64,000 nucleotides of DNA. Origin: Serratia ficaria. GTDB taxonomy: Bacteria > Pseudomonadota > Gammaproteobacteria > Enterobacterales > Enterobacteriaceae. The stretch is taken from contig NZ_LT906479.1 in NCBI RefSeq assembly GCF_900187015.1, positions 2,728,001 through 2,792,000 of the forward strand, given 5' to 3'. The position numbers and the translations under genes were made by a program. The notes beneath the pieces are model-generated. The model was given only the letters and a program-made list of their open reading frames with translations, did no database searches and was not told where the DNA came from. Shown here one piece after another: positions 3,010 to 20,270 of the stretch (within the stretch, counting starts at the first letter, position 1; each line of letters opens with the position of its first letter).

Positions 3010-3176
3010 TTCCCGCCTATCGCAGCCATCGGTTAATAAACCCCCCGCCATCAACTACGATTACTTTGTGACCACCGCCGAGGCGGCGCGGTCCGGCAGA
3101 TAACCCATTGAGGATTATCATCAATATTCATGCTGTTTAAGCCGCACGCCCTTCTCGCGGCTAAGAAAGGTTGATT

Positions 3177-5282
3177 ATGGCACGCACTACCCCTATCGAA
3201 CGCTACCGCAACATCGGCATCTCCGCGCATATCGACGCCGGCAAGACCACCACCACCGAGCGCGTCCTGTTTTACACCGGGGTCAGTCACAAGCTGGGCG
3301 AAGTTCACGACGGCGCGGCGACCATGGACTGGATGGCGCAGGAGCAGGAGCGCGGCATCACCATTACCTCGGCGGCCACCACCTGCTTCTGGAACGGCAT
3401 GCAGCATAATTACCCGCAGCATCGCATCAACATCATCGACACCCCGGGGCACGTCGACTTCACCATTGAGGTGGAGCGTTCGATGCGCGTGCTGGACGGC
3501 GCGGTGATGGTCTATGACTCGGTCGGCGGCGTACAGCCGCAGTCGGAAACCGTCTGGCGCCAGGCCAACAAGTACAAAGTGCCGCGGCTGGCGTTCGTCA
3601 ACAAGATGGACCGCGTCGGCGCCGATTTCTTCCGGGTGCGCAAAATGATGATCGAGCGCCTGAAGGCCAATCCGGTGCCGATCGTCATCCCGATCGGCGC
3701 CGAAGACCATTTCACCGGCGTGGTCGATCTGGTGCGGATGAAGGCCATCCTGTGGGACGAGGCTTCGCAGGGCATGAGCTTCAGCTTTGAGGAGATCCCG
3801 GCCGAGCTGCGCGAATCGGCTCAGGAATGGCGCGAGAACATGATCGAGGCCGCCGCCGAAGCCTCGGAAGAGCTGACGGAGAAATATCTCAATCAGGTGC
3901 CGCTGAGCGAGGAAGAGATCGTCCACGGCCTGCGGGTGCGCACCGTGGCCGGCGAAATCCAGCCGATGCTGTGCGGCTCGGCGTTCCGCAACAAGGGCGT
4001 GCAGCGCATGCTCGATGCGGTGATCGAGCTGATGCCTTCGCCGCTCGACGTGCCGCCGATGGAGGGCCACGGCGAACACGATGAGATAGTCACCCGCAAA
4101 GCCGACGACAATGAAAAATTCTCGGCGCTGGCGTTCAAACTGATGACCGACCCGTTCGTCGGCCAGTTGACCTTCGTGCGGGTTTATTCCGGGGTGCTGG
4201 CGAAAGGCGACAGCGTTTACAACCCGATCAAGGGCAAGAAAGAGCGCATCGGCCGCATCGTGCAGATGCACGCCAACGACCGCAAGGACGTGGATGAGCT
4301 GCACGCCGGCGATATCGCCGCCTGCGTCGGGCTGAAGGACGTCACCACCGGCGACACCCTGTGCGATCCCGACGCCATCGTCACGCTGGAGAAAATGACG
4401 TTTCCCGAGCCGGTGATCGCCCAGGCGATCGAGCCGAAAACCAAGAGCGACCAGGAAAAAATGGGCATCGCGCTGCAGCGCCTGTCTTCGGAAGATCCTT
4501 CGTTCCGGGTGCGCACCGACGAAGAGTCCGGCCAGACCCTCATTTACGGCATGGGCGAACTGCATCTGGAAATCATCGTCGACCGCATGCGGCGCGAATT
4601 CGGCGTGGAAACCGCCACCGGCAAGCCGCAGGTCTCCTATCGGGAAACCCTCCGCAAGCGGGTGACCGACGTCGAGGGCAAGTTCGTGCGCCAGTCCGGC
4701 GGCAAGGGTCAGTACGGCCACGTGGTGCTCACCGTCGAACCGAATGAGCCGGGTAAAGGCTTCGAATTTTTCGACGAGATCAAGGGCGGCGTGATCCCGG
4801 GCGAGTTCATCCCGGCGGTGAAAAAAGGCGTGCTGGAAGCGCTGAACAACGGCGTGCTGGCGGGTTATCAGGTGGTGGACGTCAAGGTGCATCTGACCTT
4901 CGGCTCCTACCACGACGTCGACTCCTCGGAGCAGGCATTCCGCATGGCGGCGATCTTCGGCTTTAAAGAAGCCTGCCGCCTGGCGGACCCGGCGCTCCTC
5001 GAACCTGTCATGTCGGTCGAGGTGGAAACGCCGGAGGACTACGCCGGCAACGTGATGGGCGATTTATCCTCCCGCCGCGGGCTGGTGCAGGGCATGGAGG
5101 ATATCCCGGGCGGCGGCGGCAAGATGATCCACGCCAAGGTGCCGCTGTCCGAGATGTTCGGTTACTCGACCACCCTGCGCTCGATGTCGCAGGGGCGCGC
5201 CACCTACAGCATGGAGTTCAGCCACTACGCCGAAGCGCCGCGCAACGTGGCCGAAGAGATTATCCATCACCGCCAGCGTTAA
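3177..5282 (+). CDS. fusA2: Elongation factor G, second (non-str-operon) copy
   Basis: A full-length 701-aa EF-G, the GTPase that moves tRNA and mRNA through the ribosome. All marks are present: the P loop AHIDAGKT at 17-24, [12 protein letters not shown] in switch I, DTPGHVDF near 90, NKMDR, and the domain IV segments [11 protein letters not shown] and FGSYHDVDS, including the tip histidine. The start ATG at 3177 has AAGAAAGG upstream. Many positions differ from the canonical enterobacterial str-operon EF-G as I recall it, for example [10 protein letters not shown] where E. coli has MVYCAVGGVQ. The flanking genes are not rpsL, rpsG or tuf. I therefore infer a paralogue; the canonical copy must lie elsewhere. 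Confidence 0.88.
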
Positions 5283-11721: not shown

Positions 11722-12654
11722 TTATGACTCGGCGTTCTGAGCCGCCGCTTCGCGCCGCAGCCACAGCTGCAGATCCCGCCCCTCCTGCGACAGTTCGCTG
11801 TCCTGGCGCGCGCACAGGTAATAGTCGCGCCCGTCGTCGACGGCCAGGTCGAACAGTTTGATCAGCTCACCGCCGTGGAGATAAGGCGCGATCAGCGGTT
11901 CACGCATCAGCGCACAGCCCAATCCCGCCTGCACCGCCGCCAGCGTCAGCAAGCCGTCTTCAAACATCGGGCCGGCGCTGCGCGGCGGGCGCTTCACGCC
12001 GGCCTGCTGGAACCACTGCATCCAGGCGCTGCGTTCTTCGTCGTGCAGCAGCGGCAGCGACGCCAGCTGATCCGGCGTATCCAGCAGGCCATGCAGCTTG
12101 CCGAAGGCGCGGCTGCACACCGGCACCATCTTGCCGGACATCAGCTTTTCGCTGCGGTAGCCGGTCCACTGGCCGACGCCAAAACGGATCGACAGATCGG
12201 CGGCGTCGCTGAGGTAATTTCGGTGATTGGCGTACACCACGTTGATGTCGATATCCGGATTTTCACGCAGAAAACCGCGCAAACGCGGGATAAACCAGCC
12301 CATGCCGAACAGCGGGATCAGGCTGATGGTGACCTGGCGCGAGGCGGACCGCTCGCGCACCTGTTCGGTGGCCTGACGCAGCACGTTAAACGCCGCGCGA
12401 ATGGAGCGGTAATACTCCCGCCCTTCGTCGCGCAGGATCAGAGTGCGCCCCTGGCGTTCGGTCAGCGGCATCTGCAGAAACGCCTCCAGCGTTTTCAACT
12501 GATGGCTGACCGCCGAGGGGGAAATCGCCAGCTCTTTGGCGGCGGCGCCGATGCCGCCCAACCGGGCGACCGCCTCGAAGGCCCGTACGGCGCGCAGCGG
12601 CGGATCCTTGGGCAGCGTCGGCAACGGCGCATCATACTGTTCTGTTTTTTTCAT
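11722..12654 (-). CDS. LysR-family regulator, GcvA-like
   Basis: A 310-aa LysR protein with an N-terminal winged helix (LRAVRAFEAVARLGGIGAAA, then ELAISPSAVSHQLKTLE) and a periplasmic-binding-protein-like effector domain. The closest type is GcvA/AmpR-like. It is divergent from the thiazoline/cysteine import operon beginning at 12825 and is its likely activator, with an imported compound or a pathway intermediate as ligand. No Shine-Dalgarno sequence precedes the ATG at 12654, so the start or translation mode is uncertain. Confidence 0.85.
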   Translation of the reverse strand: MKKTEQYDAPLPTLPKDPPLRAVRAFEAVARLGGIGAAAKELAISPSAVSHQLKTLEAFLQMPLTERQGRTLILRDEGREYYRSIRAAFNVLRQATEQVRERSASRQVTISLIPLFGMGWFIPRLRGFLRENPDIDINVVYANHRNYLSDAADLSIRFGVGQWTGYRSEKLMSGKMVPVCSRAFGKLHGLLDTPDQLASLPLLHDEERSAWMQWFQQAGVKRPPRSAGPMFEDGLLTLAAVQAGLGCALMREPLIAPYLHGGELIKLFDLAVDDGRDYYLCARQDSELSQEGRDLQLWLRREAAAQNAES

Positions 12655-12731
12655 ATATTGACTATTTTATGGAAAATCGGCTCAGTCGTTGAAATTAATA
12701 TACAAATAAATCAATAAATTAAAAACACTCA

Positions 12732-12761
12732 TTTTTCGTATAAGAAATTATTTTTCCGTAT
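12732..12761. promoter_or_regulatory. AT-rich repeats in the LysR/ABC-operon gap
   Basis: TTTTTCGTAT (12732-12741) recurs as TTTTTCCGTAT (12751-12761), about two helical turns apart, and TTTC-N6-GAAA forms a small dyad in the first copy. The 170-bp gap is far more AT-rich than its surroundings. Spaced sites like these suit a LysR activator between divergent promoters; the assignment is inference. Confidence 0.35.
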
Positions 12762-12824
12762 TTTACAATTTTTTTTAATTCTCTAGTGTGACCTGCCTGA
12801 ATCATCATTTTTCGGGACTCCCCT

Positions 12825-13775
12825 ATGGATACGCTGGTACAGCAGACCATCAACGGACTGATGCTCGGCAGTATTTACGCGCTGATCGCCCTGGGCTACA
12901 CCATGGTTTACGGCATTCTGCGCATCATCAACTTTGCCCACGGCGACGTGCTGATGGTCGGCGCGCTGAGCGCCCTGTCGGCCATCGGCATGCTGCAACG
13001 CCACTTCCCGTCCTTGCCGCCTGCGGCGGTGCTGCTGCTGGCGGCGCTGTGCGCCATGGCGGTATGCGCGCTGACCTCGATGGCGATCGAACGCCTGGCC
13101 TATCGCCGCCTGCGCAATGCGCCGCGCCTGGCGCCGTTGATCAGCGGCATCGGCGTTTCGCTGCTGTTGCAGACGCTGGCGATGCTTATCTGGTCGCGCA
13201 ACCCGCTGATGTTCCCGCAGCTGTTGCCGATGGACCCGATAGCGCTCACGCGCGGCGGTGCGGAACATGCGCCGGCGGTGATCACCGGCACGGCGATCGC
13301 CACCCTGGCCGTCGCCGTGCTGGTGATGGCCGGCCTGCTGCTGCTGGTGGAACACAGCCGCTTTGGCCGCGCCATGCGCGCCACGGCGGAGAACCCGCAG
13401 GTCGCCGGCCTGATGGGCATCAACCCCAACCGCATCATCGTGCTGACCTTCGCGCTCGGCGGCGCGCTGGCGGCGGTGGCCGGCGTCATGATGGCCAGCA
13501 ACTACGGCAACGCCGGTTTTTCGATGGGCTTTTTGCCGGGCATCAAGGCCTTCACCGCCGCGGTGCTGGGCGGCATCGGCAACCTGCGCGGCGCCATGCT
13601 CGGCGGACTGCTGCTGGGGCTGTTCGAATCGCTGGGCACCGGCTATCTCGGCGAACTGACCGGCGGCACCTTCGGCAGCAACTACCAGGACGTGTTCGCC
13701 TTCCTGGTGCTGATCGCGGTGCTGGTGTTCCGCCCATCCGGCCTGCTGGGCGAACGCGTCGCCACCCGCGCCTGA
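12825..13775 (+). CDS. LivH-like ABC transporter permease
   Basis: A 316-aa inner-membrane permease of the branched-chain amino acid (HAAT) ABC family. It begins MDTLVQQTINGLMLGSIYAL, has about eight hydrophobic segments, and carries the typical ATAENPQVAGLMGIN cytoplasmic loop that docks to the ATPases. It is the first gene of an operon with LivM-, LivG-, LivF- and LivK-like genes and two hydrolases. The hydrolases suggest that the cargo is a heterocyclic amino acid such as 2-amino-thiazoline-4-carboxylate rather than leucine. Confidence 0.85.
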   Translation: MDTLVQQTINGLMLGSIYALIALGYTMVYGILRIINFAHGDVLMVGALSALSAIGMLQRHFPSLPPAAVLLLAALCAMAVCALTSMAIERLAYRRLRNAPRLAPLISGIGVSLLLQTLAMLIWSRNPLMFPQLLPMDPIALTRGGAEHAPAVITGTAIATLAVAVLVMAGLLLLVEHSRFGRAMRATAENPQVAGLMGINPNRIIVLTFALGGALAAVAGVMMASNYGNAGFSMGFLPGIKAFTAAVLGGIGNLRGAMLGGLLLGLFESLGTGYLGELTGGTFGSNYQDVFAFLVLIAVLVFRPSGLLGERVATRA

Positions 13776-13784
13776 GGAGTAACC

Positions 13785-14897
13785 ATGACTATCCTGACTT
13801 CCGCACTGCAGACCGCCGCTCCCCGCCGCCTCCGGCTGGGCGTGGTGCTGTTCATGCTGGGCCTGCTGCTGGCCCCCTGGCTGGCGGGCGCCGCCGGCGG
13901 CAACTATTGGGTGCGGGTGATCGACTTCGCCCTGCTGTACCTGATGCTGGCGCTGGGGCTGAACATCGTGGTCGGCTTCACCGGCCTGCTGGATATGGGG
14001 TTCATCGCGTTTTATGCGGTGGGCGCCTACCTGACGGCGCTGCTGTCTTCCCCGCACCTGACGCAACAATTTCCGCTGCTGTTGCAGTGGTTTCCGGACG
14101 GGCTGCACCTGTCGATTTTGCTGCTGATCCCGCTGTCGGCGGTGCTGGCTGCGCTGTGCGGCATCCTGCTCGGCGCGCCGACGCTGCGGCTGCGCGGCGA
14201 CTATCTGGCGATCGTCACGCTGGGCTTCGGCGAGATCGTGCGCATCCTGATGCGCAACCTCGACCGACCGGTCAACATCACCAACGGCCCGAAAGGCATT
14301 TCCGCCATCGATCCGGTCAGCCTGTTCGGCCTGCGGTTTTCCGGCATGCATGAGTGGTTCGGCGTACGCTTTTCGTCGCTGTATCTCTACTACTACCTGT
14401 TCGCCGCGCTGCTGCTGGCGATCCTGTTTATCTGCCTGCGGCTGCAGCATTCGCGCGTGGGCCGCGCCTGGGCGGCGATCCGCGAAGACGAAGACGCCGC
14501 GCGGGCGATGGGCATCAATACCCGCAACTTCAAGCTGCTGGCTTTTGCGATGGGCGCCACCTTCGGCGGCGTCGCCGGTGCATTGTTCGCCGCCTTCCAA
14601 GGATTCGTCTCGCCCGAGTCTTTCACCCTGCAGGAGTCGATCGCGGTGCTGGCGATGGTGGTGCTGGGCGGCATGGGGCACATACCGGGGGTGATCCTCG
14701 GCGCGTTGCTGCTGGCCGCCCTGCCGGAGCTGCTGCGCAGCAGCATGGGGCCGCTGCAGCAGGCGCTGTTCGGCCAGGTGTGGATCGATCCGGAGATCGT
14801 CCGCCAGCTGTTCTACGGGCTGGCGCTGATCCTGGTGATGCTGTATCGCCCGGCCGGTTTATGGCCGGCCCGCCATTCACGGGGAGCCGCCTCATGA
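13785..14897 (+). CDS. LivM-like ABC transporter permease
   Basis: The 370-aa second permease of the importer. It shows the LivM pattern: NIVVGFTGLLDMGFIAFYAV, the LRGDYLAIVTLGFGEIVRI segment, and the AIREDEDAARAMGIN coupling loop. GAGGAG lies just upstream of the ATG, nine bases after the LivH-like stop. Its TGA overlaps the ATG of the ATPase gene that follows, so translation is probably coupled. Confidence 0.85.
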   Translation: MTILTSALQTAAPRRLRLGVVLFMLGLLLAPWLAGAAGGNYWVRVIDFALLYLMLALGLNIVVGFTGLLDMGFIAFYAVGAYLTALLSSPHLTQQFPLLLQWFPDGLHLSILLLIPLSAVLAALCGILLGAPTLRLRGDYLAIVTLGFGEIVRILMRNLDRPVNITNGPKGISAIDPVSLFGLRFSGMHEWFGVRFSSLYLYYYLFAALLLAILFICLRLQHSRVGRAWAAIREDEDAARAMGINTRNFKLLAFAMGATFGGVAGALFAAFQGFVSPESFTLQESIAVLAMVVLGGMGHIPGVILGALLLAALPELLRSSMGPLQQALFGQVWIDPEIVRQLFYGLALILVMLYRPAGLWPARHSRGAAS

Positions 14898-15664
14898 CGC
14901 CGCTGCTGTGCTTAAGCCACGTCAGCAAACGCTTCGGCGGGCTGACGGCGGTGGATGACGTCAGCATGAGCATCCATCGAGGCGAAATTTACGGTTTGAT
15001 CGGACCCAACGGCGCCGGCAAGACCACCTGCTTCAACCTGATCACCGGCCTGTACCGCGCCGACGGCGGCGAGTTCAGCCTGCAGGGCCGGCGCTACCGG
15101 CCGCAGGCGATCGACAAGGTGGTGCAGGCCGGCATTGCGCGCACCTTCCAGAACCTGCGGCTGTTCAACGACATGAGCGTGCTGGAAAACGTGATGGTCG
15201 GCTGCCACGTGCGCACCCGCAACGGCCTGTGGGCGGCGATCTCTCGCCACCGCCGCGCCCGCGAGGAGGAACGGGCGGTGCGCGAAAAATCCCAGGCGCT
15301 GCTGGAGTACGTCGGCATCGGCCGGTTCGCCCACTATCGCGCCGGCGATCTTTCCTATGGCCACCAACGGCGACTGGAAATCGCCCGGGCGCTGGCCACC
15401 GAACCGCAGCTGTTGGCGCTGGATGAGCCGGCGGCCGGCATGAACGCCGGAGAAAAGGTGGCGCTGCGCGAACTGCTGCTGCGCATTCGCGACGGCGGCA
15501 CCAGCCTGCTGCTGATCGAGCACGACGTCAAGCTGGTGATGGGCCTGTGCGATCGCCTGACGGTGCTGGATTACGGCAAGGCGATCGCCGAGGGCAAACC
15601 GGCCGAGATCCGCCGTGAACCGGCGGTGATACGGGCCTATTTGGGAGGCGCGGCGCATGTCTGA
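14894..15664 (+). CDS. LivG-like ABC transporter ATPase
   Basis: A 256-aa ATPase with Walker A GPNGAGKTT, the signature LSYGHQRRLEIARAL, Walker B LLALDEPAAGM, and the switch histidine in LLLIEHDV. The LivG-type FGGLTAVDDVS start and the ARTFQNLRLF motif are present. The ATG at 14894 overlaps the permease stop as ATGA. Its own stop lies eight bases into the next ATPase gene, showing tight translational coupling. Confidence 0.87.
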   Translation: MTPLLCLSHVSKRFGGLTAVDDVSMSIHRGEIYGLIGPNGAGKTTCFNLITGLYRADGGEFSLQGRRYRPQAIDKVVQAGIARTFQNLRLFNDMSVLENVMVGCHVRTRNGLWAAISRHRRAREEERAVREKSQALLEYVGIGRFAHYRAGDLSYGHQRRLEIARALATEPQLLALDEPAAGMNAGEKVALRELLLRIRDGGTSLLLIEHDVKLVMGLCDRLTVLDYGKAIAEGKPAEIRREPAVIRAYLGGAAHV

Positions 15665-16370
15665 ACCCCTGCTGAGCGTAAAACGGCTCAAAGTGTCCTA
15701 TGGCGGCATTCATGCGGTTAAGGGCATAGATTTCACGGTAAACAGCGGCGAACAGGTGACGTTGATCGGCGCCAACGGCGCAGGCAAAACCTCCAGCCTG
15801 CGCGCATTGACCGGCCTGCTGCCGTTCGACGGCGAGATCCTGTTCGACGGCCGTTCGATTCGCGGCGTGCCGCCGCACCGCCTGCTGCAGCAAGGGCTGG
15901 TGATGGTGCCCGAGGGGCGCGGCATTTTCGCCCGCATGACGGTGCGGGAGAACCTGCAGCTCGGCGCCTATGCCCGGCGAGATCGCGCTGCGGTGCGGCA
16001 AGATCTGGCGCGGATTTACGCCACCTTCCCGCGCCTGCGCGAGCGGCTTGACCAGCAGGCCGGGCTGCTTTCCGGCGGCGAGCAGCAGATGGTGGCGATG
16101 GGCCGCGCCCTGCTGAGCCGCCCGCGCCTGCTGGTGTTGGATGAACCCTCGATGGGGCTGGCGCCGATCGTGGTGGAGGCGATCTTCGAGGTGATCAAAC
16201 AGCTGGCCAATGACGGCGTCACGCTGTTGTTGGTGGAACAAAACGCCCGGCTGGCGCTGGAGTCGACCGACCGCGCCTATGTGCTGGACAGCGGCAGCCT
16301 GAGCCACAGCGGCCCCTCTGCCGGCATGCTGGACGATGAAAAAATCAAACGGGCCTACTTAGGCGAATAA
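15657..16370 (+). CDS. LivF-like ABC transporter ATPase
   Basis: The 237-aa partner ATPase. It has Walker A GANGAGKTS, the LivF-type VPEGRGIFARMTVRENL, the signature LLSGGEQQMVAMGRAL, Walker B LLVLDEPSMGLAP, and the switch histidine position occupied by Gln (LLVEQN), as is normal for LivF. Together with the LivG-like subunit it would power import through the LivHM-like pore. It is followed after 33 bases by the binding-protein gene. Confidence 0.87.
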   Translation: MSEPLLSVKRLKVSYGGIHAVKGIDFTVNSGEQVTLIGANGAGKTSSLRALTGLLPFDGEILFDGRSIRGVPPHRLLQQGLVMVPEGRGIFARMTVRENLQLGAYARRDRAAVRQDLARIYATFPRLRERLDQQAGLLSGGEQQMVAMGRALLSRPRLLVLDEPSMGLAPIVVEAIFEVIKQLANDGVTLLLVEQNARLALESTDRAYVLDSGSLSHSGPSAGMLDDEKIKRAYLGE

Positions 16371-16403
16371 CCCTGTTACTGTTAACCGCACCGGGAGCTT
16401 TGC

Positions 16404-17558
16404 ATGAATCAGACAACTCGCTTTACCCGCTTGGCGCTGGCCGCCGCCGTGACGATCGGCCTCAGCGCCCCCGCGCTGGCCGACCAAACCCTGCTGATCG
16501 GCCTGGCCGGGCCGCTGACCGGCCCTTCCGCGCGCATCGGCAAGGATTTGGAAAACGGCGCGCAGCTGGCGATCGCCGATGCCAATGCCCAAAAGCCGAC
16601 GCTGAACGGCAAGCCGGTCACCTTCAAATTGCTGTCCGAAGACGATCAGTCCGATCCGCGCACCGCCGTGGCGGTGGCCCAGCGCCTGGTGGACGAAGGC
16701 GTGGTCGGCGTGGTCGGCCACTGGAACACCGGCACCAGCATCCCGGCGGCGCGCATCTACCACGACGCCGGCATCGCCCAGGTGGCGCCGGTGGCCACCG
16801 GCCACGGCTATACGCAGCAAGGATTCGACACCAGCTTCCGCGTGATGGGCCATGACGACGACGGCGGCAACTATGCCGGGCAGTACGCGGTGAAAGAGCT
16901 GAAGGCCAAACGCATCGCGGTCATCGACGATCGCACCGCTTTCGGCCAGGGGCTGGCGGATGAATTCGTCAAGTCGCTGCAGGCACAGGGCGTGCAGCCG
17001 GTCACCCGCGAATACGTCGACGACAAAACCGTCGACTTCAGCGCGGTGCTGACCACCATTCGCAGCAAAAACGCCGACCTGATTTTCTTTGGCGGCGTGG
17101 ATTCGCAGGCGGCGCCGCTGGCCCGCCGTCTGAAACAGCTGGGCATGAGCGCTCAATTGATGGGCGCCGGCGGCTTTGTCAGCCAAACGTTTCTGACGCT
17201 GGCGCAAAAAGAAGGCGACGGCGTGGTGGCGCTGGAGCCCGGCCTGCCGCTGGAGCAGATGCCGGGCGGCAAGGCCTTTGAGCAGGCTTACCGCGACCGC
17301 TACAAAACCCATATCGAGCTGCATGCGCCCTTCGCCTACGACGCCACCCGGGTGTTGATCGCCGCCATCGAGCAGGCCGGCTCCGCCGACCCGGCCGACT
17401 ACCTGCCGAAGCTGCGCGCCATCCGCTATCGGGGCGTAACCGGCACCATCGCCTTCGACGCCCAGGGCAACCTGCAGCGGCCGAGCTTCACCCTGTACAA
17501 GGTGGTCGACGGCAAATGGCAGCCGCAGACCGTACTGGGCGGCGCCACACCACAATAA
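16404..17558 (+). CDS. LivK-like periplasmic substrate-binding protein
   Basis: A 384-aa secreted binding protein with a clear signal peptide ending APALA before DQTLLIGLAGPLTGPSARIG. It shows the type I fold features LVDEGVVGVVGHWNTGTSIP and AVIDDRTAFGQGLADEF. It determines what the ABC system imports. Its specificity cannot be read directly, but the downstream ATC hydrolase and carbamoylase point to a thiazoline or N-carbamoyl amino acid. GGGAG precedes the ATG. The binding-protein gene sits after, not before, the membrane genes. Confidence 0.85.
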   Translation: MNQTTRFTRLALAAAVTIGLSAPALADQTLLIGLAGPLTGPSARIGKDLENGAQLAIADANAQKPTLNGKPVTFKLLSEDDQSDPRTAVAVAQRLVDEGVVGVVGHWNTGTSIPAARIYHDAGIAQVAPVATGHGYTQQGFDTSFRVMGHDDDGGNYAGQYAVKELKAKRIAVIDDRTAFGQGLADEFVKSLQAQGVQPVTREYVDDKTVDFSAVLTTIRSKNADLIFFGGVDSQAAPLARRLKQLGMSAQLMGAGGFVSQTFLTLAQKEGDGVVALEPGLPLEQMPGGKAFEQAYRDRYKTHIELHAPFAYDATRVLIAAIEQAGSADPADYLPKLRAIRYRGVTGTIAFDAQGNLQRPSFTLYKVVDGKWQPQTVLGGATPQ

Positions 17559-17580
17559 GAAAGCCATGAGGAGCATGTCG

Positions 17581-18072
17581 ATGAGCTGTGCAAAAAACGA
17601 ATTGGGCATTCTGGCCCGCCGCAGGATTGAGGCGGAGATCATCAAACCAATCTATCAAATCCTGGTGCGCGAGATCGGCAAGGCGCGCGCCCAGGCGGTG
17701 ATCGGCGAGGCGATTGAAAACGCCGCCATCGACGCCGGCAAGCGGTTTGCCGCGCAGGAGCCGGCGGGCGCGGATTTGCAAAGCTTCGCCGCGCTGCAAT
17801 ACCTGTGGGAAAAAGACGACGCGCTGCGGGTCGAAGTGGTCAACCTGGACGACCGGCACTTCGACTATAACGTCACCCGCTGCCGCTACGCCGAGATGTA
17901 CCACGAAATGGGGCTGGGCGAGATCGGCCACCTGCTGTCGTGCGCCCGCGACAGCCAGTTCATCGTCGGCTACGCGCCGGACGTCGAACTGCAGCGCAGC
18001 CAGACCATCATGTCCGGCGCGCCCTGCTGCGACTTCCGCTACACCGCCAAAACTCGGGAAGAGAAAAAATGA
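17581..18072 (+). CDS. L-2-amino-thiazoline-4-carboxylic acid (ATC) hydrolase family protein
   Basis: A 163-aa protein matching the ATC hydrolase family (Pfam ATC_hydrolase). The C-terminal block with RCRYAEMYHEMGLGEIGHLL, then SCARDSQF, then CCDFRY is the part I recognise. In Pseudomonas, AtcB of this family opens L-ATC to N-carbamoyl-L-cysteine. The start at 17581 is set by AGGAG seven bases upstream; two earlier in-frame ATGs (17566, 17575) overlap or crowd that site. Its stop overlaps the start of the amidohydrolase gene (ATGA), which catalyses the expected next step. The family call is firm, the precise substrate inferred. Confidence 0.8.
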   Translation: MSCAKNELGILARRRIEAEIIKPIYQILVREIGKARAQAVIGEAIENAAIDAGKRFAAQEPAGADLQSFAALQYLWEKDDALRVEVVNLDDRHFDYNVTRCRYAEMYHEMGLGEIGHLLSCARDSQFIVGYAPDVELQRSQTIMSGAPCCDFRYTAKTREEKK

Positions 18073-19295
18073 CTCTGCAGATCGACGGCGAGCGCCTGTG
18101 GCGCAGCCTGCATGAGATGGCGCAGTTCGGCGCCATCGCCAACAACGGCGTCACCAGGCTGGCGCTGAGCGAAGAAGACCGGCGGGCGCGCGACCAGCTG
18201 CGCGACTGGGCGCTGCAGGCCGGCTGCAGCGTGCGGGTCGACCGCATGGGCAATATGTTCCTGCGCCGCGAAGGCGCGCGCCCCGAGCTGGCGCCGGTGG
18301 TGACCGGTTCGCACGGCGATTCCCAGCCCAACGGCGGCCGTTTCGACGGCATTTACGGCGTGCTGGCCGGCCTGGAGGTGCTGCGCACCCTCAACGATCG
18401 CCAGATCGCCACCGAACGGGCGATCGAGGTGATCAACTGGACCAACGAAGAAGGCGCGCGTTTTGCGCCGGCGATGATTTCCTCCGGGGTCTTCTCCGGC
18501 GAGTTCAGCCTGGAATACGGCCTGTCGCGCCGCGATGCGCAGGGCGTCAGCATCGGCGAGGCATTGCGGGAAATCGGCTATGACGGCGAACGGCCGGTGG
18601 GCGGCCTGCCGATCCACGCGGCCTTCGAGTTGCATATCGAGCAAGGGCCGATCCTCGAGGCGGAAAACATCGCGATCGGCGTGGTGACCGCCGCGCAAGG
18701 GCAGCGCTGGTATGAACTGGAGATCGTCGGTTTCAGCGCCCACGCCGGCACCACGCCGATGGATCGCCGCCGCGACGCCCTGCTCGGCTTTGCCGAGCTG
18801 GTCACGGCGGTCAACCGGATTGGCCTGGACTTTGCGCCGGACGCGCGCGCCACCGTCGGCATGGCGCAAATCACCCCCAATTCGCGCAACGTGGTGCCGG
18901 GCAAGGTGTTCTTCAGCGTCGAGTTTCGCCATCCGCAGGAAGCGGTGCTGGAACAAATGGAGCAGCGCCTGCTGGCGGCGGTCGGCGCGGTGAATGGCGA
19001 CGCCTTGAGCGCCCGCGCCGAGCGCATCTTCCAGTATCGGCCGATCCGCTTCGACGCCGCCTGCATCGCCAGCGTGCGCCAGGCGGCGCAGACGCTGGGC
19101 TACAGCCATCGCGACATGATCTCCGGTGCCGGCCACGACGCCTGTTATCTGAGCCGGGTGGCGCCGACCGCGATGATTTTCATCCCCTGCGTGGACGGTA
19201 TCAGCCACAACGAACGGGAAAACATCACGCCGGGCTGGGCCGCCGCCGGCGCCAACGTGCTGTTGCACGCGCTGCTGGCGCACGCCGACGCCTGA
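18069..19295 (+). CDS. Zn-dependent amidase/hydantoinase-carbamoylase (M20 family)
   Basis: A 408-aa member of the N-carbamoyl-L-amino-acid hydrolase group. Metal-site motifs are GSHGDSQPNGGRFDG near 80, WTNEEGARF near 125, and HIEQGP near 190. The dimerisation-domain motif FSAHAGTTPMDRRRDA and the late AGHDACYL, PTAMIF and SHNE are also present. Such enzymes cleave N-carbamoyl amino acids to the amino acid, ammonia and CO2. Next to an ATC hydrolase the expected substrate is N-carbamoyl-L-cysteine (AtcC role), giving L-cysteine. It is the last gene of the operon. Confidence 0.83.
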   Translation: MTLQIDGERLWRSLHEMAQFGAIANNGVTRLALSEEDRRARDQLRDWALQAGCSVRVDRMGNMFLRREGARPELAPVVTGSHGDSQPNGGRFDGIYGVLAGLEVLRTLNDRQIATERAIEVINWTNEEGARFAPAMISSGVFSGEFSLEYGLSRRDAQGVSIGEALREIGYDGERPVGGLPIHAAFELHIEQGPILEAENIAIGVVTAAQGQRWYELEIVGFSAHAGTTPMDRRRDALLGFAELVTAVNRIGLDFAPDARATVGMAQITPNSRNVVPGKVFFSVEFRHPQEAVLEQMEQRLLAAVGAVNGDALSARAERIFQYRPIRFDAACIASVRQAAQTLGYSHRDMISGAGHDACYLSRVAPTAMIFIPCVDGISHNERENITPGWAAAGANVLLHALLAHADA

Positions 19296-19333
19296 TCCCT
19301 TTGCGCCCCCGGCAGCCGCTCGGGGCGCAAAAA

Positions 19334-19359
19334 AATATTCAACAAGATGGTTGAATATT
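19334..19359. promoter_or_regulatory. ArsR-family operator dyad 1
   Basis: AATATTCAAC and GTTGAATATT are perfect 10-bp arms separated by six bases. The right arm contains the predicted -35 hexamer of the arsR-type promoter, so binding would block RNA polymerase. Confidence 0.7.
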
Positions 19360-19386
19360 AGCCTGACTGTTCTATATTCAACCATA
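19351..19386 (+). promoter_or_regulatory. arsR-type promoter, apparently leaderless transcript
   Basis: TTGAAT (19351-19356) and TATATT (19373-19378) are spaced by 16 bases. Transcription would start seven or eight bases later, at or next to the A of the ATG at 19386. No Shine-Dalgarno sequence precedes that ATG. Promoter geometry and the missing ribosome-binding site agree on a leaderless mRNA. Confidence 0.55.
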
Positions 19387-19395
19387 TGGTTAAAT
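19376..19395. promoter_or_regulatory. ArsR-family operator dyad 2, over the start codon
   Basis: A 20-bp imperfect palindrome centred on CATATG (core AACCATATGGTT) overlaps the -10 element and the arsR ATG. Its half-site TTCAACC resembles the arms of the first dyad, so the same repressor probably binds both. Confidence 0.55.
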
Positions 19396-19733
19396 TATCT
19401 TCCTCTCAGCTGGACGCCATTTTCCACGCGCTGTCCGACCCGACCCGGCGCTCCATGCTGCGCGCGCTGGCCGACGGCGAACGCAGCATCGGCGAACTGG
19501 CCGCGCCGCTGCAGATGTCGTTCGCCGGCGCCTCCAAGCACGTTAAAGCACTGGAACATGCGGGCCTGGTGCAGCGAACCGTGCAGGGAAGAAACCATAT
19601 TTGCCGGCTCGAACCCGAGCCGATGGCGCAGGCCATGCAATGGCTGCAAACCTATGAACATTTCTGGACTGAACGGCTGGACGCGCTGGAACTGGCGCTG
19701 CGCCAGGCCGAACAGCATCCTCCCAAGGAGTGA
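19386..19733 (+). CDS. ArsR-family (SRPBCC-associated) transcriptional regulator
   Basis: A 115-aa winged-helix repressor starting MVKLSSSQLDAIFHALSDPT and carrying ALADGERSIGELAAPLQMSF, then SKHVKALEHAGLVQR. There is no metal-binding CxC motif. This subgroup regularly pairs with an AHSA1/SRPBCC gene, as here, where the partner begins four bases after the stop. The promoter region holds two dyads that suit autorepression. The ligand is unknown. Confidence 0.87.
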   Translation: MVKLSSSQLDAIFHALSDPTRRSMLRALADGERSIGELAAPLQMSFAGASKHVKALEHAGLVQRTVQGRNHICRLEPEPMAQAMQWLQTYEHFWTERLDALELALRQAEQHPPKE

Positions 19734-19736
19734 ACC

Positions 19737-20270
19737 ATGAATGACTACGGCATGATTATCGAACCCGGCACGCTGCGCATCCAGCGGTTGCTGCCCGGCC
19801 CGATCGAACGGGTCTGGGCCTACCTGACCGAATCCGACAAGCGCGCCACCTGGCTGGCGGCCGGTGAGATGACGCTGGAAAGCGGCGCGGCGCTGGAGCT
19901 GAATTTCCGCAATTCCGATCTGGCGGGCGAGCACGAACAGCCGCCGGCCAAATACAAACAGCACGGCGGCTGCGTCAGCAACCGCGGGCACATTACCTGC
20001 CTTTTCCCGCCGCGCCTGCTGAGCTTTACCTGGGCCGAACAGGATCAGGGCCGCCCTTCCGAAGTGACTTTCGAGCTGACCGAGCAAGGTCAGGCGGTGC
20101 TGCTGACGGTGACCCATCGCCGGTTGGCCAACCGCGACGACATGCTCAGCGTGGCCGGCGGCTGGCACACCCACCTGGATATCCTGGTGGACCGGCTGCA
20201 TGACCGCCAGCCACGGCCGTTCTGGAGCACCCACGCCAGGCTGGAAGAGGAATACCGCGCCAGGCTGTGA
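19737..20270 (+). CDS. AHSA1/SRPBCC-domain protein
   Basis: A 177-aa START-like protein of the AHSA1 group. It opens with LRIQRLLPGPIERVWAYLTE, the usual first strand and helix, then WLAAGEMTL, and ends with SVAGGWHTHLDILVDRL. Such proteins have a deep hydrophobic cavity and often bind a small molecule; the bacterial members' roles are mostly unknown. AAGGAG precedes the ATG. It is co-transcribed with the ArsR regulator, which may sense the same ligand. Confidence 0.8.
   Translation: MNDYGMIIEPGTLRIQRLLPGPIERVWAYLTESDKRATWLAAGEMTLESGAALELNFRNSDLAGEHEQPPAKYKQHGGCVSNRGHITCLFPPRLLSFTWAEQDQGRPSEVTFELTEQGQAVLLTVTHRRLANRDDMLSVAGGWHTHLDILVDRLHDRQPRPFWSTHARLEEEYRARL

Follow-up and report, generated by a model that had tools for sequence, protein, structure and literature searches.

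The AtcB and AtcC enzymes are known from the industrial production of cysteine, and those of Pseudomonas sp. BS have masses of 19.5 and 44.7 kDa, respectively. L-2-amino-thiazoline-4-carboxylate (ATC) hydrolase, N-carbamoyl-L-cysteine amidohydrolase and the N-carbamoyl intermediate are all named in reference titles of a review that describes two routes, N- and S-carbamoyl, and that depicts the S-carbamoyl one in a figure legend (PMC10821248). PF14196 is the family of the thiazoline-ring-opening enzyme (PMC5847659), and ATC itself arises from cyanide and cystine (PMC10575699). With respect to uptake, E. coli K-12 is described as having no dedicated importer for free cysteine, which enters accidentally through the LIV system (PMC7373191). 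Here we analyse a locus of Serratia ficaria in which a gene pair of the atcBC kind shares an operon with a LIV-like ABC importer, next to a divergent gene for a LysR-type regulator. The locus lies in a window, i.e. the whole stretch of 64,000 nucleotides that was analysed, which corresponds to positions 2728001–2792000 of a single 5.21-Mb contig (NZ_LT906479.1). Judging from sequence comparisons, we consider it probable that the operon serves the uptake and hydrolysis of a cyclic, masked cysteine, most likely L-ATC.

An eight-gene unit and its relatives

The features of the unit are as follows, with coordinates of the window and protein lengths in amino acids (aa).

11722–12654, − strand: LysR-type regulator, GcvA-like, 310 aa; PF00126 and PF03466 above cut-offs; divergent from the operon
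12740–12768, + strand: conserved promoter box ATAAGAAATTATTTTTCCGTATTTTACAA, candidate LysR site between the LysR gene and livH
12825–13775, + strand: LivH-like ABC importer permease; PF02653; LivH model 227 bits, below the cut-off of 379
13785–14897, + strand: LivM-like ABC importer permease; PF02653; LivM model 277.5 bits, cut-off 366
14894–15664, + strand: LivG-like ABC importer ATPase; PF00005 and PF12399 (BCA_ABC_TP_C); 4-base overlap
15657–16370, + strand: LivF-like ABC importer ATPase; PF00005; 8-base overlap
16404–17558, + strand: HAAT-type periplasmic binding protein, 384 aa; PF13458 (Peripla_BP_6) 215.1 bits
17581–18072, + strand: AtcB, PF14196 ATC_hydrolase family, 163 aa; 137.5 bits against a cut-off of 28.1
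18069–19295, + strand: AtcC, M20 N-carbamoyl-amino-acid amidohydrolase, 408 aa; PF01546; TIGR01879 417.1 bits against a cut-off of 204

All eight gene identities and positions given in a preliminary description, which had been made from the DNA letters alone, were recovered. A Pfam scan returned LysR, two BPD_transp_2, two ABC_tran, Peripla_BP_6, ATC_hydrolase and Peptidase_M20, and the binding protein, the two permeases and the two ATPases, encoded in a single operon, make up a HAAT-type ABC importer. As described, the regulator gene is divergent from seven tightly packed genes, with 170 bases between it and livH; the overlaps that had been noted at several joints occur at three of the six (4, 8 and 4 bases), the remaining joints being gaps of 9, 33 and 22 bases. 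A profile search of the 163-aa protein against ATC_hydrolase, which the description had proposed as a check, gave the score listed above and covers the whole PF14196 profile (positions 1–145 of 145). The operon has a G+C content of 66.4%, compared with 62.4% for the window, and the gap between the LysR gene and livH one of 27.6%. PF14196 occurs a single time in the host genome; within the genus, 22 of the 30 genomes examined contain the family, and a sample of 398 genomes from the phylum yielded 30 that do, the host among them.

A contig scan with AtcB led to 167 places, of which the best 80 were kept (AtcB 67–91% identical), so that the counts given below refer to close relatives. The complete set of eight genes is present in 70 of these 80 loci, and the grouping is thus beyond chance. 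AtcB occurs in all 80 by construction, as the loci were found through it, and a LysR ortholog in 78. In one locus (L048) AtcC falls below our ortholog criterion of 50% identity and 60% coverage, two loci of Herbaspirillum (L071, L073) retain the binding protein with the permeases and ATPases missing, and two others (L078, L079) run off their contigs. In Burkholderia, one locus (L133) comprises LysR, binding protein, AtcB and AtcC, with no permease within the 18 kb read; its binding protein may work with another permease. The pairing of AtcB with AtcC that had been proposed earlier is supported: the 4-base overlap of the window has a counterpart in 79 of 79 related loci. When the start is set at the first ATG or GTG that is in frame and no more than 14 bases ahead of the stop, the overlap measures 4 bases in 66 loci, 8 bases in 12 and a single base in one. 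For Pseudomonas, 25 of 27 fetched loci were long enough to judge, and 21 of the 25 have the importer; AtcB orthologs of this genus are in general 67–74% identical to the AtcB of the window. No match was obtained for E. coli in 20,395 records at blastn sensitivity.

The 80 loci represent 23 groups of surroundings, one of which merges Serratia and Enterobacter. When neighbours were clustered in search of a ninth partner, none emerged. Once antisense frames of the operon's own genes had been set aside, no outside family was more widespread than one with members in 17 of 81 loci; a loose ABC-ATPase family turned up in 11 loci, which belong to several lineages and in which its position varies. Of the 23 surroundings, 6 have NMT1-type binding proteins close to the unit (15 loci of the 80), a protein type that is absent from 208 kb of control DNA, and 3 have luciferase-like monooxygenases, for which the control gave one match. 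Neighbours of these types were seen at Pseudomonas and Herbaspirillum loci (L061:2951–3958, L068:260–3906, L069:5004–6050 and L071:2920–4254). We have not used them as a tie to sulfur metabolism, because the queries were drawn from the same flanks and the argument would be circular.

In a joined AtcB–AtcC tree, constructed by a quick method with no bootstrap, the nearest relatives of the window copy are from Serratia, beside the S. marcescens group, and the branching mostly tracks taxonomy. Therefore, recent acquisition of the window copy does not seem likely. That the unit can move is evident from whole copies on plasmids: all eight genes reside on a conjugative plasmid of Kosakonia cowanii (L128:3165–10736) and also on a plasmid of Pantoea dispersa. 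Altogether 84 plasmid records matched, and six regions, a Burkholderia plasmid region among them, were opened, two of the six being without annotation. Plasmid pAM01 of Aminobacter sp. MSH1 (L130:630–9501) carries LysR, AtcB and AtcC. On plasmid p2 of Azospirillum brasilense (L131:840–9477), an M20 gene, an FAD oxidoreductase gene and two PF14196 genes surround another HAAT importer, which makes it a further, distinct case of PF14196 being paired with an importer of this type.

The ligand pocket of the importer

The host genome encodes at least three other HAAT systems. One is a LIV operon with proteins 76–88% identical to those of E. coli, a second is of the amino-acid type, and a third, more distant one is presumed to be of the urea type. 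The importer of the operon stays below every LIV cut-off; in addition to the permease scores listed above, the other three comparisons yielded 276.9 bits against 362, 237.9 against 441 and 220.9 against 477. The ligand of E. coli LivJ is bonded through its carboxylate by S79 and T102 and through its ammonium group by E226, with Y202 as a further bonding residue (PMC13103812). We mapped the pocket in the binding protein of the window together with 73 orthologs, i.e. 74 sequences. Both carboxylate anchors are kept in all 74, with Thr in place of S79 and Thr at T102 (T109 and T132 in the window), whereas the ammonium anchor E226 has become Gly in all 74 (window G256). Y202 is replaced by Val in 73 sequences and by Ile in one, and Y150 by Phe. 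The Glu at the E226 position is retained in LivK and in the LivJ/K-like protein of the host; the second such host protein has Asp. A pocket that keeps its carboxylate grip and loses its ammonium grip fits a ligand with a ring-bound or acylated amine. The Glu of a GG-x-H-P-E motif had been considered as the counterpart of the ammonium ligand of LivJ, but the numbered residue mapping ruled this out. Since the eight genes co-occur in 70 of 80 loci, the host has a separate LIV operon and the pocket is altered, we regard the importer as belonging with the enzymes, as the preliminary description had supposed.

It is important to note that nothing in the analysis fixes the ring. The chief rival is therefore the same architecture handling a different cyclic derivative of an amino acid, such as a hydantoin, a thiazolidine of the 2-oxo or 2-thioxo type or some other cyclic amidine, which AtcB would open to an N-carbamoyl-type product and from which AtcC would free the amino acid. 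The pocket would suit any carboxylate with its amine in a ring or acylated, the unit on the Pantoea dispersa plasmid adjoins hydantoinase/oxoprolinase genes, and the gene combination on Azospirillum p2 points in the same direction. In addition, PF14196 is a wide family, of which to our knowledge only a few Pseudomonas enzymes have been assayed. However, hydantoinase-like neighbours were met in just one of the six plasmid regions, two of which lack annotation, and the strict AtcB–AtcC coupling (79 of 79) is the gene order of the assayed ATC pathway. Taken together, we deem a different ring unlikely and continue with L-ATC as the preferred ligand.

The two hydrolases and the regulator

In an alignment of 40 AtcB sequences, 14 of which are only 30–35% identical to the AtcB of the window, C101, C121 and C150 are invariant, as are D124, R139, T142 and other residues. 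A three-cysteine cluster has been described for PF14196 in a 2018 paper, according to which the family resembles V4R and heme-NO-binding domains and has three conserved cysteines in common with V4R (PMC5847659). An HHalign comparison of the AtcB family (64 sequences, including 24 distant members picked by script) with V4R covered 127 columns and gave a probability of 34.9% and an E-value of 4e-4 for one comparison, which is a weak match. Among the controls, none of five unrelated profiles exceeded 1.6%; the reversed profile gave 0.15%, and the probability did not rise above 0.8% in any of 30 column shuffles. The V4R segments stem from 30 loci, of which 19 were taken; four of these were dropped because the chosen frame had no motif, leaving 15, and with the four motif-less rows included the probability was 39.7%. 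In this comparison, C121 and C150 of AtcB coincide with V4R cysteines. None of the 40 AtcB members matched V4R in Pfam, even at E-values up to 10, and three of them touched MetOD1, with a best E-value of 0.068. A search for solved structures related to AtcB by sequence found none at E-values up to 1, and a profile search returned one chance-level match (E 0.45). The profile comparison makes a kinship between AtcB and V4R likely, though short of proof, the missing Pfam matches counting against it. The cysteine cluster of AtcB probably holds a metal.

AtcC can be aligned over its full length with solved M20 structures, its nearest chains being 5THW, 5I4M and 4WJB (589 to 430 bits, with 8C46 among the structures compared). 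In RrCbetaAA, three residues, Glu131, Gln196 and His385, are responsible for the carbamoyl group, and a fourth, Arg291, for the carboxylate (PMC10952681). Glu131, Gln196, Arg291 and His385 align with E127, Q192, R287 and H380 of AtcC when the solved chain 8c46 is used, with a single offset between chain and paper numbering at all four residues, and these four are invariant in 80 of 80 AtcC sequences. The structure 4WJB ("putative amidohydrolase/peptidase") matches the AtcC of Burkholderia cenocepacia (L133:9488–10729) with 903 bits over 411 residues. By this similarity it appears to be the solved structure of an AtcC, and the match gives context to an as yet uninterpreted structure.

AtcC also raises the question of ureide or pyrimidine salvage, in which AtcC would be a beta-ureidopropionase or an allantoate-type amidohydrolase, the importer would take up a ureide, and AtcB would be unrelated or a helper. 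The best-scoring model for AtcC is that of an allantoate amidohydrolase (NF006769, 626.6 bits against a cut-off of 452), and the solved chain nearest to it, 5THW, is listed in the literature as a complex with N-carbamoyl-beta-alanine (PMC10952681). Yet AtcC does not reach the equivalog cut-offs that mark true allantoate deiminases (TIGR03176, 252.6 against 597.75). Since the two genes are constantly coupled (AtcB is in every one of the 80 loci, having served to find them, and AtcC overlaps it in 79 of 79), ureide or pyrimidine salvage seems very unlikely to us.

The regulator belongs to the LysR family by Pfam, and its best NCBIfam match is GcvA with 259.7 bits, below the cut-off of 288. The promoter box upstream of livH overlaps a −35-like TTTACA (12762–12767), and 16 bases on follows TAGTGT (12784–12789). 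The box is retained with few changes in 12 of 12 aligned Serratia sequences, recognisable in 14 aligned sequences of the Enterobacteriaceae group (39 extracted) and less clear in 14 aligned Pseudomonas sequences (25 extracted). At up to three mismatches the genome contains one such site and none for the reversed control; in a consensus promoter scan the box site was not among the predictions. LysR probably binds this box.

Some further features were seen downstream of the operon and elsewhere in the window. Directly after AtcC there is a perfect 10-base inverted repeat (19300–19331, by eye); the bases that come next on the + strand are A's rather than T's. At 19386–20270, 3′ of the operon, Pfam recognised an ArsR-type regulator along with an AHSA1 protein, and just before them, at 19334–19359, lies the palindrome AATATTCAAC-N6-GTTGAATATT (by eye), which is probably the site of the ArsR-type regulator. 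A 703-aa open frame at 3171–5282 resembles elongation factor G by eye; its neighbours are unlike the usual ribosomal operon, and it is perhaps a second copy of this factor.

The proposed pathway and known systems

In the pathway that we favour, the binding protein would capture ATC by its carboxylate, and the importer, all five parts of which are encoded in the operon, would bring it into the cell. AtcB, as its family suggests, would add water at C2 of the ring and break the C–S bond to give N-carbamoyl-L-cysteine. From this intermediate AtcC would release L-cysteine, CO2 and ammonia, in agreement with its family and its active-site residues. The divergent LysR probably switches the operon, at the box overlapping the −35 element, in the presence of ATC or a product. 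Thereby, the cell would most likely gain cysteine as a sulfur source, plus some nitrogen. As a possible sign of sulfur starvation we determined the cysteine content of the importer, which is on average 0.43% in 71 importer sets, 8 of 1567 (0.51%) in the window and 10 of 1501 (0.67%, with LivF partial) in E. coli LIV; the binding protein is free of cysteine in 72 of 73 cases. The difference has the right direction but is too weak, and we made no use of it.

Regarding stereochemistry, the preliminary description had pointed out the absence of a racemase for D-ATC and concluded that only L-ATC may be used. The absence was confirmed for the operon, but the conclusion does not follow, because PF01177 proteins encoded elsewhere in the genome could act in trans. 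PF01177 has four matches in the host genome, three of them above the cut-off and none tied to the operon: one gene is located beside an allantoinase-like gene (by eye; no NCBIfam match), one is Asp/Glu-racemase-like and one is MurI-like by eye. Among the related loci, a PF01177 gene adjoins the AtcB relative in L087 (749–1423), and an Amdase/PF01177 gene, EutA-like below its cut-off, is found 3′ of AtcC in L051 (11904–12668). These members of the Asp/Glu racemase family are either candidates for an ATC racemase or unrelated.

Another conceivable purpose of the operon is cyanide defence, i.e. the clearing of cyanide trapped as ATC, with cysteine recovery being secondary. This would agree with the origin of ATC from cyanide and cystine, and on pAM01 genes for a cytochrome bd-type oxidase and for a DUF2474 protein are found no more than about 6 kb away from atcBC, an arrangement seen once that may hint at cyanide resistance. 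However, the importer brings ATC in and does not remove cyanide, and no cyanide-handling family stood out by eye in the top 45 clusters of shared neighbours. Nor was an HcnABC set recognised in the host genome, where it was sought through Fer2_4 alone and HcnB and HcnC were not searched; of the two Fer2_4 matches, one lies in a 925-aa open frame and the other, by eye, in a cluster resembling hydroxyproline epimerase/dehydrogenase genes. Self-made cyanide is therefore unlikely, and any cyanide would come from outside. Of the explanations considered, cyanide defence is the least probable, and we give it hardly any weight.

Several observations weigh against a dedicated route for ATC. In five loci (L051, L059, L069, L070 and L076) the importer is absent and LysR is divergent from AtcB–AtcC, and a Sinorhizobium plasmid has AtcB without AtcC or LysR. 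In the loci from the phylum search, which extend about 1.5 kb to each side, AtcC accompanies AtcB in only 5 of 29, so that the farther members of PF14196 mostly have other partners. Two other binding proteins also lack the acidic pocket residue, an Aminobacter one encoded next to genes for tryptophan degradation and the Azospirillum one, and the pocket change therefore does not single out ATC. Likewise, the substrate of AtcC is not readable from its family, because 5THW is described as a complex with N-carbamoyl-beta-alanine. Finally, the sulfur importers of E. coli are reported to be under the control of CysB (PMC7373191), whereas the operon of the window has a private LysR.

On a broader scale, the unit could stand for a widespread, mobile route by which cysteine is imported as the cyanide-derived ring ATC via a specialised HAAT importer, unmasked by a V4R-like metal hydrolase and a carbamoylase, and governed by its own LysR switch. 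We advance this wider view tentatively, as falling somewhat short of probable. If it is true, ATC would be a real nutrient in nature as well as a feedstock for industry and a marker in forensics, and protected cysteine would have a dedicated importer in bacteria, including those in which free cysteine has no known one. That the enzymes are held in a conserved operon with an importer whose pocket has lost its grip on a free amine suggests that ATC-like rings serve as nutrients in nature. Moreover, the importer could aid ATC conversion.

In comparison with the atcB–atcC genes of Pseudomonas sp. BS/ON-4a, the window encodes members of both families, likewise with atcB ahead of atcC, and their masses (18.4 kDa for AtcB and 44.3 kDa for AtcC) are close to those given above, the likeness being one of family, order and size. 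What the window adds is a five-part importer in the same operon and a divergent LysR. In the literature on ATC, its hydrolase and N-carbamoyl-cysteine, with thin coverage of subscription papers, we found no title or abstract with an importer-plus-atcBC operon; the new part is the importer that accompanies enzymes of a known kind. AtcC has full-length similarity and four key residues in common with the M20 structures 5THW, 5I4M, 4WJB and RrCbetaAA 8C46. In the weak profile match, two AtcB cysteines line up with cysteines of V4R sensor domains (PoxR/MopR type), but AtcB is by family a free-standing enzyme and not a sensor. With the LIV importer (LivJ/LivK-HMGF) the window has in common the five-part HAAT architecture, the fold family of the binding protein and the carboxylate anchors. 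On the other hand, all of its proteins score below the LIV cut-offs, and the residues corresponding to E226 and Y202 of LivJ are Gly and Val/Ile in 74 of 74 sequences. One may speculate that a LIV-like importer for protected cysteine is a natural counterpart, or step, to the accidental uptake of free cysteine through LIV.

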